In this document: positions 3,511 to 57,026 of the stretch, piece after piece | Layout of the letters: each line of letters opens with the position of its first letter | How positions within the stretch are numbered: the stretch's first letter is position 1 | Origin: Gloeothece verrucosa PCC 7822 | GTDB lineage: Bacteria; Cyanobacteriota; Cyanobacteriia; Cyanobacteriales; Microcystaceae | Direction of reading: 5' to 3' | Length of the DNA: 64,000 bases | Assembly (NCBI RefSeq): GCF_000147335.1 | Contig: NC_014501.1 | Coordinates: 1,689,501 to 1,753,500, forward strand | Program-made: the position numbers and the translations under genes | The notes under the pieces: model-generated | The model's database searches: none | What the model was told of the DNA's origin: nothing | The model's input: the letters and a program-made list of their open reading frames with translations, nothing else

Positions 3511-5478
3511 TTAGCGGTTACGCCATTTCCAATAAGCTTGTAAGGGACTTATCGAATTAGCTTGATTGTAATTATGCCCCTTATGTACTTCTAGATGAGT
3601 ATGGGGGTACATCCAATAGCCTTGGTAAGAAGCTCCATCAAAAACTGTACCAATTATGCTTCCAGCTTCAACACGCTTACCAACTATTCCGTTAGTATAA
3701 TTTTTCAGATGACCATAAATCCAAAGATTACCATCATCACCTTTAATACCTATGAAGTAGTTGCCAGAAATATTTTGAATTAGAGTAGCTGTACCACCAA
3801 TTACAGTTTTTACCGTATTACCGGCCGTTGAACCCATATCAATACCATAGTGGATACCATCGTAATTAGTGGTATCCTTGTATCCAGCAGTCATAACTTT
3901 ATAAGAGCCAAAAATACCATTCGAGAGATCAGAGTAAATCTGCTTTACGGATGCAAGACTTTCACCATTTTGAAGATTGCCATCAAAGAATAAATTATCA
4001 CGACTTTGATAATTCCAATCATTATCGGTTAATGATGAAAGTTCACGATAGTAACCCGATTCTCCTACAACACTCCAGCTATTATCGGCAAAACCAATCC
4101 GGTGAGGTGAGGTAGCTTTTCCTTGCGAGTTGAGCAACCAACCATCAATATTTCCATCAGGAGCACGTAATACTAAATCGTCACGTCCGTCACCATTAAG
4201 ATCACCAATGCCCACAACACTCCAGCTATTATCGGCAAAACCAATCCGGTGAGGTGAGGTAGCTTTTCCTTGCGAGTTGAGCAACCAACCATCAATATTT
4301 CCATCAGGAGCACGTAATACTAAATCGTCACGTCCGTCACCATTAAGATCACCAATGCCCACAACACTCCAGCTATTATCGGCAAAACCAATCCGGTGAG
4401 GTGAGGTAGCTTTTCCTTGTGAGTTGAGCAACCAACCATCAATATTTCCATCAGGAGCACGTAATACTAAATCGTCACGTCCGTCACCATTAAGATCACC
4501 AATGCCCACAACACTCCAGCTATTATCGGCAAAACCAATCCGGTGAGGTGAGGTAGCTTTTCCTTGTGAGTTGAGCAACCAACCATCAATATTTCCATCA
4601 GGAGCACGTAATACTAAATCGTCACGTCCGTCACCATTAAGATCACCAATGCCCACAACACTCCAGCTATTATCGGCAAAACCAATCCGGTGAGGTGAGG
4701 TAGCTTTTCCTTGTGAATTGAGCAACCAACCATCAATATTTCCATCAGGAGCACGTAATACTAAATCGTCACGTCTATCTCCGTTTAAATCAGAACTTTG
4801 AGATTTTTCTATTAAAATATTTTGCCCACCTACTGTAATAACTCCCGAATCATCCTCAAGCTTTAATAAAGCTAACTTCTCATCAGGTAAAAGCTTCCCT
4901 TGTACTAAATGAGAGAATATATCCCCCTCATCACCTGCCGCATCAAAACGATTAATTTGTGAATCTATATAATGTCCAATTTCTTCTGTTAATACCCCGG
5001 CTATTTCCTCAATATTGTGAGTCTTAACAAACTGATCCGATAAGAAAATCGTTTGAACTGAATTAGCATAAGCTCCATTAGCATTGCCTAAAATATCAGA
5101 ACTGATAATTTCCACTTTAGGTAATTGACTAAAATCTCCTTGGGCTAGACTTTGGCGAATTGACTCAGCAATTTCTTGATTGTAATTTTCCCCAAAAGCT
5201 AAACCAAATTGATCATAAAACTCAGGCTGTGTGGCGAATCTTGTCAGTTGATCTTCGACTAAACAACCAGCTTCTTCTACTGGGTAAATAAGACTAATGT
5301 CTGTTAGTGAATTAATATTTAAATCACTAAAATTATCAACTAAGCCTAAAGCAGGAGTTTTTGAATTACCCAAAAAAGGATTTAAAGATGTTAAAGAAGG
5401 GTGTACAGGCTCATTCGTGTTGAGACCCGAAATAGAATCTATGGAATCAGCTTGCAAATCTGCGAGAACCTCAAACAT
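3511..5478 (-). CDS. Multidomain surface/secreted protein: EEIGH domain, FG-GAP/VCBS-like repeats, M23 metallopeptidase
   Basis: A 655-residue protein. Residues about 60-200 form a domain with an EEIGH motif (165-169) that recurs in large cyanobacterial exoproteins and resembles a zincin helix with one altered His. Residues about 230-476 are five copies of a 49-residue FG-GAP/VCBS-like unit with the Ca-binding-type DLNGDGRDDLV loop. The C-terminal domain is a LytM/M23 endopeptidase with all expected residues: HYGID (H543, D547), YGH (H590) and HTH (H626, H628). Likely role: peptidoglycan or protein cleavage outside the cytoplasm. No classical signal peptide is visible, so export may use a type I route. 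Start ATG follows AAGGAGG. Confidence 0.8.
   Translation of the reverse strand: MFEVLADLQADSIDSISGLNTNEPVHPSLTSLNPFLGNSKTPALGLVDNFSDLNINSLTDISLIYPVEEAGCLVEDQLTRFATQPEFYDQFGLAFGENYNQEIAESIRQSLAQGDFSQLPKVEIISSDILGNANGAYANSVQTIFLSDQFVKTHNIEEIAGVLTEEIGHYIDSQINRFDAAGDEGDIFSHLVQGKLLPDEKLALLKLEDDSGVITVGGQNILIEKSQSSDLNGDRRDDLVLRAPDGNIDGWLLNSQGKATSPHRIGFADNSWSVVGIGDLNGDGRDDLVLRAPDGNIDGWLLNSQGKATSPHRIGFADNSWSVVGIGDLNGDGRDDLVLRAPDGNIDGWLLNSQGKATSPHRIGFADNSWSVVGIGDLNGDGRDDLVLRAPDGNIDGWLLNSQGKATSPHRIGFADNSWSVVGIGDLNGDGRDDLVLRAPDGNIDGWLLNSQGKATSPHRIGFADNSWSVVGESGYYRELSSLTDNDWNYQSRDNLFFDGNLQNGESLASVKQIYSDLSNGIFGSYKVMTAGYKDTTNYDGIHYGIDMGSTAGNTVKTVIGGTATLIQNISGNYFIGIKGDDGNLWIYGHLKNYTNGIVGKRVEAGSIIGTVFDGASYQGYWMYPHTHLEVHKGHNYNQANSISPLQAYWKWRNR
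4068..4780. repeat. Five direct 147-bp repeats inside the M23 protein gene
   Basis: The marker ATTATCGGCA recurs at 4081, 4228, 4375, 4522 and 4669, exactly 147 bp (49 codons) apart. Units are almost identical at nucleotide level. A visible difference is the TGCGAG / TGTGAG / TGTGAA position, which is silent or nearly so. Such identity indicates recent amplification or gene conversion, and copy number may vary between strains. Confidence 0.95.
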
Positions 5479-5812: not shown

Positions 5813-7774
5813 ATGCAACAAACCAATCTTGTCCAAAACAGCTTACTCAGTGATATTGACTTTCACCTGTTTGGAGAAGGAAAACATTATCAGATTTATG
5901 AAAAACTCGGAGCGCATCTCGTTGAATTTGACGGGGTAACAGGGGTTTACTTTGCCGTGTGGTCGCCTAATGCTCAATCCGTTTCGGTGGTGGGTGATTT
6001 TAATGCTTGGAATGCTGACCAACATCCGATGGAACGTAACCCGATGGGTATTTGGGAGCTATTTATTCCTTCGCTGGAGGTGGGAGAAAAATACAAGTTC
6101 GTTATTAAAAATAACCAGCAAAAGACGACCTTTAAAACTGACCCCTATGGTTATCAACAAGAACTCCGCCCGGCTACGGCATCCATTGTGACGGATTTAT
6201 CCTATACTTGGCATGACCAAGATTGGTTGACGCGGCGTTCTCAAAGTAATCCCCATACTCAAGCGGTTTCGGTATATGAGGTGCATCTAGGGTCTTGGTT
6301 GCATACGGGTTGGGATACGCAGATTGAAAATGGGGTTCCTGTGGCGGTTCCGAATAAACCGGGGGCACGGTTTTTAACCTATCGAGAACTAGCCGATAAG
6401 CTTATTCCTTATGTTAAAGAAATGGGTTATACCCATATTGAATTGTTACCGATAACTGAACATCCTTTTGATGGGTCTTGGGGATATCAAGTGGTTGGGT
6501 ATTTTGCCCCAACTTCTCGTTATGGGACTCCTCAAGATTTTATGTATTTTGTGGATGAATGTCATAAAAATAATATTGGTGTTATTTTAGATTGGGTTCC
6601 GGGGCATTTTCCCAAGGATGAACATGGATTAGCCTTTTTTGATGGAACTCCTCTCTATGAATATGCTGACCCTCGACAAGGAGAACATAAAGAGTGGGGG
6701 ACTTTAGTCTTTAATTATGCACGCAATGAAGTCCGCAATTTTTTAATTTCTAATGCCCTTTTTTGGTTTGATAAGTATCATATTGACGGAATTCGAGTAG
6801 ATGCGGTTGCCTCGATGCTTTATTGGGACTATGCCCGGGAACCCGGTCAATGGCTTCCTAATCAATATGGCGGACGGGAAAATTTAGAAGCGGCTGAGTT
6901 TTTGCGGCAGTTGAATAATACGATATTTGAATATTATCCGGGTGTTCTGTCTATTGCTGAAGAGTCTACCACTTGGCCAAAAGTATCGCACCCGACTAAT
7001 GAAGGCGGATTAGGGTTTAATTTTAAGTGGAATATGGGATGGATGAATGATACCTTGCGCTTTTTCCACACCCAACCTTCAGATCGCTCTAATGTTCACA
7101 ATACCATTACCTTTAGTATTTGGTATGCCTTTACTGAGAAGTTTATGCTGGCACTTTCTCATGATGAGGTGGTGCATGGGAAGGGGCATTTATTCCAAAA
7201 AATCCCTGGAGATGACCGGCAAAAGTTAGCCAATTTGCGGCTACTGTTTGCCTATATGTTTACTCATCCCGGTAAGAAAACGCTGTTTATGGGGATGGAG
7301 TTTGGTCAGACCCGTGAGTGGAATGTTAATGCTGATTTAGATTGGTGGCTGTTAGAAAAGGATTCTCATCAGCAGCTTAAACAGTTGGTGCAGTATTTGA
7401 ATTATTTGTATCAAAATGAGCCAGCACTTTATAGTGATGATTTTACAAATGACGGGTTTGAATGGATTGACTGTAATGATGTGGCACGCGGCTTAATTTC
7501 TTATATCCGTAAAGATAAGTATTCCGGTGAAATGATGGTGACAATTTGCAATTTTAAGCCGAATGCTTACCAAAATTATTGGTTAGGGGTACGGGAATCA
7601 GGAACTTATGTTCAATTGCTGAATACGGATTCACAAATGTATGGCGGTAATGGGTTAGAAAATTCTTTGAAGCTTCCAACCCATCAATGGAATTCTCAAC
7701 CTTGGCCTTATGCGCTTGAGGTGAATGTTCCTCCGATGGCGGCTTTAATTTTTAAAAAGAGTGAAGAGTTATAA
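5813..7774 (+). CDS. glgB: 1,4-alpha-glucan branching enzyme (GH13), short form
   Basis: Makes alpha-1,6 branches in glycogen. The 653 residues comprise a CBM48 module (FAVWSPNAQSVSVVGDFNAW), the GH13 barrel and an all-beta C-terminal domain. Catalytic residues are present: nucleophile D330 in DGIRVDA, acid/base E383 in AEEST and D451 in LSHDEVVHG. Many bacterial GlgB proteins are about 730-770 residues because of an extra N-terminal N1 domain; this one starts almost directly at CBM48 and so lacks it. Cyanobacteria of this group often carry several branching-enzyme paralogues. An ordinary single gene with its own upstream spacer. Confidence 0.93.
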   Translation: MQQTNLVQNSLLSDIDFHLFGEGKHYQIYEKLGAHLVEFDGVTGVYFAVWSPNAQSVSVVGDFNAWNADQHPMERNPMGIWELFIPSLEVGEKYKFVIKNNQQKTTFKTDPYGYQQELRPATASIVTDLSYTWHDQDWLTRRSQSNPHTQAVSVYEVHLGSWLHTGWDTQIENGVPVAVPNKPGARFLTYRELADKLIPYVKEMGYTHIELLPITEHPFDGSWGYQVVGYFAPTSRYGTPQDFMYFVDECHKNNIGVILDWVPGHFPKDEHGLAFFDGTPLYEYADPRQGEHKEWGTLVFNYARNEVRNFLISNALFWFDKYHIDGIRVDAVASMLYWDYAREPGQWLPNQYGGRENLEAAEFLRQLNNTIFEYYPGVLSIAEESTTWPKVSHPTNEGGLGFNFKWNMGWMNDTLRFFHTQPSDRSNVHNTITFSIWYAFTEKFMLALSHDEVVHGKGHLFQKIPGDDRQKLANLRLLFAYMFTHPGKKTLFMGMEFGQTREWNVNADLDWWLLEKDSHQQLKQLVQYLNYLYQNEPALYSDDFTNDGFEWIDCNDVARGLISYIRKDKYSGEMMVTICNFKPNAYQNYWLGVRESGTYVQLLNTDSQMYGGNGLENSLKLPTHQWNSQPWPYALEVNVPPMAALIFKKSEEL

Positions 7775-7790
7775 ACCAATAAACTGACAC

Positions 7791-48361: not shown

Positions 48362-48623
48362 AGTTTTTAAGTTAACAATTAACAGTTAACAGTGAACAGT
48401 TTTCAGTCATTAGTTAGATAATTGCTGATTCCTGTTTACTGCTTACTGATTACTGTTCCCTGAGCAGTGGTCAATTGTCAATTGTCTATTTTGCGTCTTC
48501 ACTGAACACCGAGTAGGAGAAAGCCGCAAAGGGCAAAGGGCAAAGGGGAAGGGGCAAAGGGGAAAGGGCAAAGGGCAAAGACAACTATTGACTACTGACT
48601 ACTGACTATTGACTAATAACTCA
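48362..48623. repeat. Dense cluster of heptamer-type tandem repeats
   Basis: Three families lie side by side: TTAACAGT-like units (48365-48410), GGGCAAA/GGGGAAA-type units at 48527-48580, and GACTACT/GACTATT units at 48587-48615. There is no gene in the 262 bp between aroA and the DUF1517 gene. Typical of cyanobacterial STRR intergenic repeats. Confidence 0.8.
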
Positions 48624-49873: not shown

Positions 49874-50686
49874 TTACAGTTTAAAGACCTTTTTTAAAGT
49901 AGGAATTTTCGCTTTTCCAATGCCGCAGTTTAAGCTAGTAATTGGGTTTAAGCTTTTCCATTTACTTTTAGATTCTGTAAAAATAATATCGGCTATTTTG
50001 TCGGCATTAATCTTTTCAAATCCATCGATTTTATAAGTCGATAAATAGTTCAGCCGCTCAAATATTTCCTCTCTAGAGGCGCGTTTAATACTAATGATTT
50101 CTGGTGGGTGAGGTGGGGGAATTTCTGGCTCACTAGGAACGGGTTCGAGAAAAAATACTTGTTTGAGACTGTCTAATTTTTTGCCTTGAGTAATGCCACA
50201 TTTTAATTTAGGAATTTCATTAAAGGTTTTCCACTTAGCCCGAGTAGGACTACTGGCTATTTTTTCACTGGCTATGAGGATTTTTAAGGCTTTTAGTTCA
50301 CTATTTGGTTGTTCTTGTAAATATTTTAAAGCGGCCTGAATAGTTTCTCCAGAAGCAGTATTTAAGTTAACTTTGGGCGGCATTTCGCCATTGAGGATTT
50401 TGACTTGTTCGATGCTCTCTTGTTTCGCTTCTATTACAATACACCATACTCTCTCTAATACGAGTTTTTTAGCCACTACATAAATCAGAGGGTTACTCAC
50501 TACTTGATATTGATACTCGGCTATTTCTTTGACAATTAAAGGTAGCCAGTTTCTTCCCTCTTCTTTTAATACGGCTTCTACGGCTCCCTGAATGATAAAT
50601 TCTGAAGCATAACATTCATCATTTGCGGGTTCGATATCTTCTACAGGAAGATACATTAATTTACCGATATTATCAAAGTCACTCAT
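49874..50686 (-). CDS. ParB-like protein with two helix-hairpin-helix-like modules
   Basis: 270 residues. N-terminal 95 residues follow the ParB/Srx-type plan (YLPVEDIEPANDECYASEFI, NWLPLIVKEIAEYQYQVVSN, KKLVLERVWCIVIE). Two tandem units then appear: VNLNTASGETIQAALKYLQE...KLKCGITQGKKLDSLKQVF (about 105-178) and IKRASREEIFERLNYLSTYK...LNCGIGKAKIPTLKKVF (about 200-270). Both recall ComEA/T2SK-like HhH DNA-binding motifs. A Pro-rich linker (EPEIPPPHPP) separates them. The ATG overlaps the stop of the upstream ParA gene by 8 bp, implying coupled translation. Confidence 0.7.
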   Translation of the reverse strand: MSDFDNIGKLMYLPVEDIEPANDECYASEFIIQGAVEAVLKEEGRNWLPLIVKEIAEYQYQVVSNPLIYVVAKKLVLERVWCIVIEAKQESIEQVKILNGEMPPKVNLNTASGETIQAALKYLQEQPNSELKALKILIASEKIASSPTRAKWKTFNEIPKLKCGITQGKKLDSLKQVFFLEPVPSEPEIPPPHPPEIISIKRASREEIFERLNYLSTYKIDGFEKINADKIADIIFTESKSKWKSLNPITSLNCGIGKAKIPTLKKVFKL

Positions 50687-52100
50687 TGATAAAATACTCC
50701 TTGGCTAAAGCTAAATAATATTGATAAGCCGTTTGATGACTAAGCGCGGCTGGACGACGGGAAAACGCAGCACTCGCTACAATGGCATATTGAGGAATAT
50801 TAAAAACTGATTGATCAGCTAAACCATTAATAGATTTAGGATAAAATAAAGAAAATAATTCCTCATCTCTCAGCGAACCTCTAGGAGTTTCTATAGTTAG
50901 CAATTTTTTGATTTCTTCATGAGTTGTTTTCATTTGAGCTTCGGTAGAACTGTGCTGGTTAAAAAAGATAGGTAAAGCTATAGGGATTCCATATTCATGA
51001 TTTTTTCGTCTTTCATCTTGAATTTCTGGGAGATATTGTTTAATCACTTTTTTAGCATTTTTCAAAGAAGCAAAATTATTAGAATTAGTAGGAATTAACA
51101 CTACATCTGAAGCATAGACACAACTTTTACTCAAAAATGACCAGTTAGTCGGACTATCAAAAATAATATAATCATAACAATTTAACAAGGGATGAATCAG
51201 CCTTCTTAGCCGAGTATTTCCGCCTTGTATTTGAGCCATTTTTATTTCATTTGTCATGATTTCTTCTAATTTATCATCAGGACAAATCAAATCAAAAACA
51301 TGAACTTGTTTCTGTTTTAGTTGAATAAAAAAAGGTTGAATAACATCATCAATATTGATTTTTGTATTCATTAACGCATCAGAAAATTTAACGCTTGCCT
51401 CTCCTTTTCCTAAAGAAGCGGTTAAATCTCCTTGTTGTGGATCAAAATCAATGACCAAAACCTTCTTATTGAGAATTCCTAAAACCGAGGCTAAATTAGC
51501 CACTGTTGTGCTTTTACCCACTCCTCCCTTGTCATTATATACACAGATAGACAAGGCTCTCGGAGTTTGATTAATAAAACGTTTTATTTGAGTAATAATT
51601 TGCTCTATATTATCTTTCTTGATTAGATAGTTTTCTGTAGCTGGAAAGACAACTTTTCCGTGTCGGCGAAACAGTTGGATATGTTCAGAATTAGTAATAA
51701 TTCCCCATTGGGCAGTTTTACAGTTAGGTGAGAGTAAATAATCTTTGATTTGTATTTGAGCATCTTTGTATTGGGGTGTACCTGTGGCTAAATTAATCTT
51801 TGCGCCGCCATTGGTTTGTCTGCCTTTAGCTTCGATGAGAAGATAGGGATTAGTTTTAGCTTTGATAAAAATTGCCTTATGGTTATTTTTCCTAGCCGCA
51901 TAATCTACTTTACAAGAACCCTTACCTGTAGAAAATTCTGGAAACCACTCTTGTTGACTAAACCCGAGTTCTGCTAAAAGAGGCTCTACGAAAAGCTTAC
52001 AGACAAGGGGTTCATTAGCATTATATGGAATAGACTCTAAAATTTCTTGCCAATTGAGCCTAATTTCGTTGTCATCGAAGGATATAGGTTGAGCAACCAT
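50679..52100 (-). CDS. ParA/MinD-type ATPase fused to an N-terminal HsdR_N-like nuclease domain
   Basis: 473 residues. Residues 1-165 resemble the N-terminal domain of type I restriction HsdR proteins, with a PD-(D/E)XK-type D66 (KVDYA) and E90-A-K92 (LLIEAKG), then a TNSEHIQLFRRHG strand. Residues about 183-470 are a ParA ATPase: deviant Walker A KGGVGKST (191-198), DFDPQQGD near 218 and DYIIFDSPT. ParA proteins load plasmids, chromosomes or other cargo on DNA. The combination with a nuclease-like sensor is uncommon and could be partition, defence or DNA repair. Domain reading from motifs, no search. Confidence 0.8.
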   Translation of the reverse strand: MVAQPISFDDNEIRLNWQEILESIPYNANEPLVCKLFVEPLLAELGFSQQEWFPEFSTGKGSCKVDYAARKNNHKAIFIKAKTNPYLLIEAKGRQTNGGAKINLATGTPQYKDAQIQIKDYLLSPNCKTAQWGIITNSEHIQLFRRHGKVVFPATENYLIKKDNIEQIITQIKRFINQTPRALSICVYNDKGGVGKSTTVANLASVLGILNKKVLVIDFDPQQGDLTASLGKGEASVKFSDALMNTKINIDDVIQPFFIQLKQKQVHVFDLICPDDKLEEIMTNEIKMAQIQGGNTRLRRLIHPLLNCYDYIIFDSPTNWSFLSKSCVYASDVVLIPTNSNNFASLKNAKKVIKQYLPEIQDERRKNHEYGIPIALPIFFNQHSSTEAQMKTTHEEIKKLLTIETPRGSLRDEELFSLFYPKSINGLADQSVFNIPQYAIVASAAFSRRPAALSHQTAYQYYLALAKEYFINE

Positions 52101-56680: not shown

Positions 56681-56699
56681 ATATCAATATAACTAATAA

Positions 56700-56748
56700 C
56701 TAATGACTAATGACTAATGACTAATGACTAATGACTAATGACTAATGA
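56700..56748. repeat. Heptamer array, seven perfect CTAATGA units
   Basis: Seven identical 7-bp units in a row, preceded by a degenerate unit (CTAATAA). It overlaps the stop codon of the DUF2470 gene (CTA at 56742-56744, TAG on the minus strand), so its last residues Ser-His derive from repeat-like sequence. Confidence 0.9.
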
Positions 56749-57026
56749 CTCAAAGTTCTTGCCTGTTTTACCATATCAATTAAAGTATGATGAGCATCTT
56801 CTGAATCTTTTAATTCATGAGCAAATTCAATGCGAACAGGAACGGTTTCCTCCTCAATTTGCACTGATAAATTCATCCCTTGCGGATCAATCGATAACAT
56901 TTGAGCCGCTTGAGCATTAGGAATATTCCCAAAAGCTTTAGCATAGAGAACTATTGCATCTCCATGATCCTCATTCATGTGTTTACAAATGCGATCGCTA
57001 ATAGTAGAAGTAATGGGATCTGCCAT
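56742..57026 (-). CDS. DUF2470 domain protein
   Basis: 94 residues from ATG 57026 (MADPITSTISDRICKHMNED). The NEDHGDAIVLYAKAFG motif is the DUF2470 signature; relatives are heme-binding domains, including Synechocystis Ssr1698, linked to iron and redox balance. AAGGAA lies upstream. The gene begins 1 bp after the stop of cobK on the same strand, so both are probably one transcript. Confidence 0.85.
   Translation of the reverse strand: MADPITSTISDRICKHMNEDHGDAIVLYAKAFGNIPNAQAAQMLSIDPQGMNLSVQIEEETVPVRIEFAHELKDSEDAHHTLIDMVKQARTLSH

Follow-up and report, generated by a model that had tools for sequence, protein, structure and literature searches.

The 64,000-nucleotide stretch of the Gloeothece verrucosa PCC 7822 genome analyzed here (hereafter, the window) contains two leftward open reading frames that overlap by 8 bp, exactly as an earlier sequence-only reading of this region had described them. 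Gene 1 (50679–52100, minus strand) encodes a protein of 473 aa, and gene 2 (49874–50686, minus strand), whose start overlaps the stop of gene 1, encodes a protein of 270 aa. The pair is present in a single copy in the genome (7.84 Mb, 7 contigs), on the 6.09-Mb contig. The residues that had been singled out in the first protein, namely D66, E90-A-K92 and the KGGVGKST motif with K191 and K196, are all found at these positions. Neither frame is there by chance, since homologues lie side by side across cyanobacteria and the named residues are virtually invariable. Elsewhere in the window, a 147-bp unit is repeated in 4.8 copies with 99% identity (4067–4775), and runs of heptanucleotide tandem repeats, a short-repeat kind common in cyanobacteria, occur at 48370–48615 and 56692–56750.

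The larger part of the gene 1 protein (residues 183–473; 50682–51554, minus strand) is a ParA ATPase domain with a deviant Walker A motif. Pfam detects the ParA-type AAA_31 family at residues 185–351 (E 2e-29), PHROG 164, a ParA-like partition protein, matches residues 177–470 (E 6e-33), and this portion of the protein folds as Soj/ParA (Foldseek E 5e-17). K191, K196, D218, D220, Q223 and D315 are invariant in all 74 sequences of a homologue alignment, the signature lysine and the KGGxxK[ST] motif both being kept, so that the domain is indeed the full ParA that had been proposed, and one of partition type. Membership of the nitrogenase-type, MinD, McdA or ArsA groups was rejected, as the matches of gene 1 to these were weaker than those to ParA.

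As for the N-terminal portion (residues 1–175; 51576–52100, minus strand), Pfam finds no significant match there in the gene 1 protein itself. Among 17 homologous N-domains, HSDR_N_2 matches 15 (best E 1.4e-7) and HSDR_N matches nine. In the 74-member alignment, no substitution occurs at E30, E90, K92 or Q117, and D66 is present in 73 sequences and Y121 in 67. The AlphaFold model of gene 1 (pLDDT 92.9, pTM 0.91) shows a helix at residues 30–44, strands at 52–57, 64–69 and 87–91, a second helix at 109–122 and a last strand at 132–136, that is, the α-β-β-β-α-β order of the PD-(D/E)XK core, with D66 in the second strand, E90 and K92 in the third, and Q117 and Y121 in the second helix. Judged from the sequence, the PD-(D/E)XK active site is represented by D66 and E90-x-K92, and the QxxxY motif known from HsdR and RecB nucleases (PMC4454674) by Q117-x3-Y121. 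A Foldseek search with the full fusion listed ParA-type folds alone, and no nuclease fold, among its top 50 matches, and the nuclease assignment therefore rests on the sequence profiles and the order of secondary structure elements. Residues 1–175 are thus predicted to be a restriction-type nuclease domain of the HsdR/RecB kind that looks catalytically intact. This agrees with the PD-(D/E)XK-like N terminus recognized earlier: profiles, conserved residues and predicted fold order are all nuclease-type in residues 1–165, where that reading had placed the domain.

By itself, the gene 2 protein scores poorly against Pfam; among its 76 homologues, ParB_N matches 75 (best E 1.5e-5), Rho_N 50 and SAP 38. 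Its structural model (pLDDT 91.7) resembles ParB/Noc/KorB (Foldseek E 4e-6) and, more weakly, sulfiredoxin, which bears out the suggestion of a ParB/Srx-like N terminus and assigns a ParB_N/Srx-fold domain to approximately residues 1–100 (50387–50686, minus strand). The CTP-binding GERRxRA motif is absent from this domain, and in the aligned and sampled partners, the corresponding stretch reads (S/G)Nx(F/L)(V/I)Y. No helix-turn-helix (HTH) family recurs among the 76 homologues in place of the ParB HTH, HTH_19 matching only two of them weakly; SAP/Rho_N domains or a duplicated module are found there instead. This middle module, VNLNTAS...LKCGITQGKKLDSLK, follows the ParB_N domain and, in the clade to which the window belongs, is a tandem duplicate, with copy 1 at residues ∼103–183 (50139–50380, minus strand) and copy 2, 31% identical to it, at residues ∼197–270 (49877–50098, minus strand). 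The sister clade has a SAP/Rho_N-type domain where copy 2 would stand. The gene 1 tree divides in keeping with these partner ends: the duplication occurs in all clade A partners (those missed by a regular expression being assigned to the duplicated class by eye from their sequences), and each of the 48 clade B partners is short and of SAP/Rho_N type. Two helix-hairpin-helix (HhH)-like modules had been claimed for this region; the tandem duplication holds, while the HhH identity is suggestive only, being visible by eye and receiving 25% probability (E 8e-4) in a single hhalign comparison of the module with ComEA-type HhH, so that copy 1 is possibly HhH-like. On the strength of profiles and models, gene 2 is predicted to encode a ParB-fold adaptor that is without the CTP-binding motif and ends in domains of DNA-binding type. 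The anatomy as a whole, a nuclease–ParA fusion plus a ParB-fold adaptor, is a prediction in which we have considerable confidence.

When 84,980 species genomes were scanned, 132 relatives of the N-domain emerged, and the best 80 were examined. All but one of these 80 lie in cyanobacterial records; the exception, a short “Tatlockia” MAG contig, falls within the cyanobacteria in the tree and is probably a contaminant. This restriction to cyanobacteria is defined by one pattern-based genome scan, tuned to the main subfamily, together with plasmid and phage searches. Within these best 80 of 132, the partner adjoins the fusion in 76 loci, three of the others ending near a contig edge and one lacking an intact frame. 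Where the junction was measured, the start of the partner overlaps the stop of the fusion by 4 bp in 49 of 72 loci and by 8 bp in 10. The correlation between the distance matrices for gene 1 and gene 2 has r 0.88, a value that shared ancestry alone would give likewise. Of 386 cyanobacterial genomes searched with a profile, 50 contain the N-domain (37 of 143 genera), and the open frame that encodes it almost always measures 440–505 aa, which means that it is fused to ParA. A second subfamily, mostly plasmid-borne and 24–25% identical, keeps E30, D66, E90 and K92 (Q117 is not kept) and the same pair layout, with a minimal partner of 178–180 aa, and further divergent versions of the fusion with partners occur in small-genome cyanobacteria. 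The two genes thus form a conserved two-gene unit that appears to evolve as one. The coupling of a ParA-nuclease to a ParB-like protein, put forward from the window alone, therefore recurs across genomes, and the homologues are fusions rather than standard parAB pairs.

Three fusions have no recognizable adjoining ParB-like partner (L182:6847–8301, L183:5376–6767 and L184:6390–7790), and the first two of these come from two related genomes and both adjoin the same rpsB/tsf-like genes. Some copies of the fusion are frameshifted or disrupted. At L193:6207–8838, the fused gene is split by a transposase-like open reading frame (6605–7777), an apparent insertion-sequence disruption.

Most copies of the unit are chromosomal and solitary, a few being on plasmids, and no gene besides the pair recurs generally among the neighbors. 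The unit lies beside an RNA 3′-phosphate cyclase gene in Nostocaceae and close kin and near a GHL10 gene among Microcoleaceae; since the same neighbors are found across species in these two families, it has been held for long at one site. For an empty-site comparison, no close relatives retain both flanking genes. An integrase-like gene is found near the unit at seven loci. The anti-phage setting that had been suggested for the pair found no support: PADLOC 2023 gave only weak Walker-region matches for gene 1 (PDC-M28B and mad8) and none for the partner, and a comparison of 140 near (<3 kb) with 140 far (>6 kb) neighbors showed no enrichment of defense genes, the near genes being ordinary, so that a defense-island location is not supported either. 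Phage records contain no match to the partner; the unit is present on one virus contig of 58 kb, where the fusion is the sole ParA gene.

The combination of nuclease–ParA with a ParB-like protein is absent from Pfam, NCBIfam, PADLOC and PHROGs, and a literature search of partial coverage, with most subscription journals outside its scope, returned no description of the fusion or of the pairing.

What might such a pair do? The reading that we tentatively favor, while putting it, mechanism and role taken jointly, somewhat short of an even chance, is that of a self-contained two-protein module, an ATP-controlled DNA nuclease guided by a ParB-like protein. In its ATP-bound state, the ParA half would behave like other ParAs, dimerizing and spreading on DNA, and would thereby bring two nuclease domains together as a pair. 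The adaptor would bind particular DNA, recognized by site, structure or topology, recruit the ParA-nuclease and stimulate ATP hydrolysis, and ATP turnover would thereby gate cutting or nicking. With low certainty, the most likely role would be action on foreign or aberrant DNA, such as incoming plasmids or damaged or unresolved DNA, partition-like behavior being the chief alternative. The conserved active site, the HSDR_N_2 and HSDR_N matches, the confidently modeled PD-(D/E)XK order, the adjacent and overlapping partner with its ParB fold and the sporadic spread (50 of 386 genomes) count for a nuclease module. Against a defense-like role for it counts the occupation of the same chromosomal site across species of Nostocaceae and Microcoleaceae, unlike fast-turnover defense genes; the absence of defense-island enrichment, the plasmids on which the fusion is the only ParA and the three loci without a recognizable adjoining partner likewise count against the module. 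A more specific version, in which the pair is a cyanobacterial immunity or genome-surveillance machine whose ParB-like-steered ParA cycle positions and licenses the fused nuclease on foreign or aberrant DNA, is possible and yet more tentative.

The plasmids bear most directly on the chief alternative, a partition system in which ParA would position DNA marked by the ParB-like protein and the nuclease-fold domain would either replace the type Ia HTH for DNA binding or nick or resolve DNA during segregation. The complete ParA with its signature lysine, the PHROG partition match at the C terminus of gene 1 and the parAB-like placing of the ParB-fold gene downstream of ParA all suit this explanation. 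So do two plasmids on which the fusion is the only ParA gene, ABRG53g (12.6 kb) and pLBA (77.8 kb, also encoding a terminase), the first of which carries, downstream of the partner gene, iterated eight-base TGTAACAG repeats (L146:411–713) that could be a centromere or replication origin. However, canonical ParAB coexists with the unit on four of seven records (these four being plasmids, two of which also encode ParM), and the unit is therefore unneeded for partition on these four. Moreover, the unit is mostly chromosomal and single copy, the partner lacks the CTP motif of ParB, no repeat is common to different cassettes (and no array comparable to that of ABRG53g flanks the window pair), and mere positioning needs no invariant catalytic residues. 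Partition is thus doubtful but still in play, owing to the two plasmids with the fusion as their only ParA and to the lack of a defense-island location; we rank it a little below action on foreign or aberrant DNA, since partition alone would hardly account for the conserved active site and for the presence of ordinary par systems alongside the unit. Two plasmid settings deserve description in their own right. Leptolyngbya boryana pLBA (NZ_AP014639.1; L147 and L148) resembles a phage-plasmid, with its terminase, a Rad52-family protein and methyltransferases. Nostoc sp. UHCC 0870 harbors three cassettes of two subfamilies on the plasmids NZ_CP091922.1, NZ_CP091917.1 and NZ_CP091923.1, each with its own par systems.

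It is unlikely that the unit is a chromosomal DNA-maintenance factor acting in repair, replication or recombination, with a ParA-type switch controlling a RecB-like nuclease. Long retention at one site among housekeeping genes in Nostocaceae and Microcoleaceae, the RecB/HsdR-type QxxxY motif of gene 1 and the HhH and SAP modules, which repair proteins commonly carry, would fit, but most genomes are without the unit, which is also plasmid-borne, and the frameshifted or disrupted copies make it dispensable. It is very improbable that the N-terminal domain is catalytically inactive and serves solely to bind DNA or protein: many PD-(D/E)XK folds have been recruited without catalysis, but here it is exactly the catalytic residues that are invariant (74 sequences), and they are kept in the distant subfamily too.

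ParA ATPases are known as motors that position DNA, carboxysomes or other cargo, to which partner proteins connect them. A conserved ParA with an intact-looking, built-in nuclease would tie the ParA ATPase cycle to DNA cleavage, and if the immunity or surveillance reading is true, a ParA motor would deliver a cut rather than move cargo. About one-eighth of the cyanobacterial genomes sampled contain the unit, among them those of filamentous Nostoc and of Microcystis, which forms blooms. The unit may therefore have consequences for the genetic engineering of cyanobacteria, for their sensitivity to phages or for plasmid uptake. Cassettes in cultured strains, such as that on L. boryana pLBA, are open to direct testing.

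Each half of the predicted module has counterparts among known systems. McdAB, which positions carboxysomes, resembles the pair in being a chromosomal system of cyanobacteria made up of a ParA-family ATPase and its partner; the pair differs in possessing the signature lysine and a nuclease domain, and carboxysome genes are not recurrent beside it. With PadC and the sulfiredoxin/free serine kinase superfamily, which are noncanonical ParB folds, gene 2 shares its predicted fold; in contrast to these, its nucleotide-binding motif is replaced by the conserved (S/G)Nx(F/L)(V/I)Y stretch, and it has DNA-binding-type C-terminal modules and is paired with a ParA-nuclease. HsdR of type I restriction systems (EcoR124I type) likewise has an N-terminal PD-(D/E)XK nuclease with QxxxY before an ATPase, although the Q is not retained in the plasmid subfamily here, the ATPase is a ParA instead of an SF2 translocase, and no HsdM or HsdS recurs nearby. 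Further parallels are with ParABS (type Ia P1 ParA/SopA; Soj/ParA), which shares the complete deviant Walker ParA with its signature lysine, the gene order from ParA to a ParB-fold protein and, in type Ia, the presence of one domain before ParA. This preceding domain is an HTH in type Ia and a predicted restriction-type nuclease here, no centromere repeats shared between cassettes were found, and SAP/Rho_N or the duplicated module takes the place of the ParB HTH. The pair is hence best filed not as a member of ParABS, its partner being without two defining features of ParB (GERRxRA and the HTH), but as a variant of the ParA/ParB-type kind.
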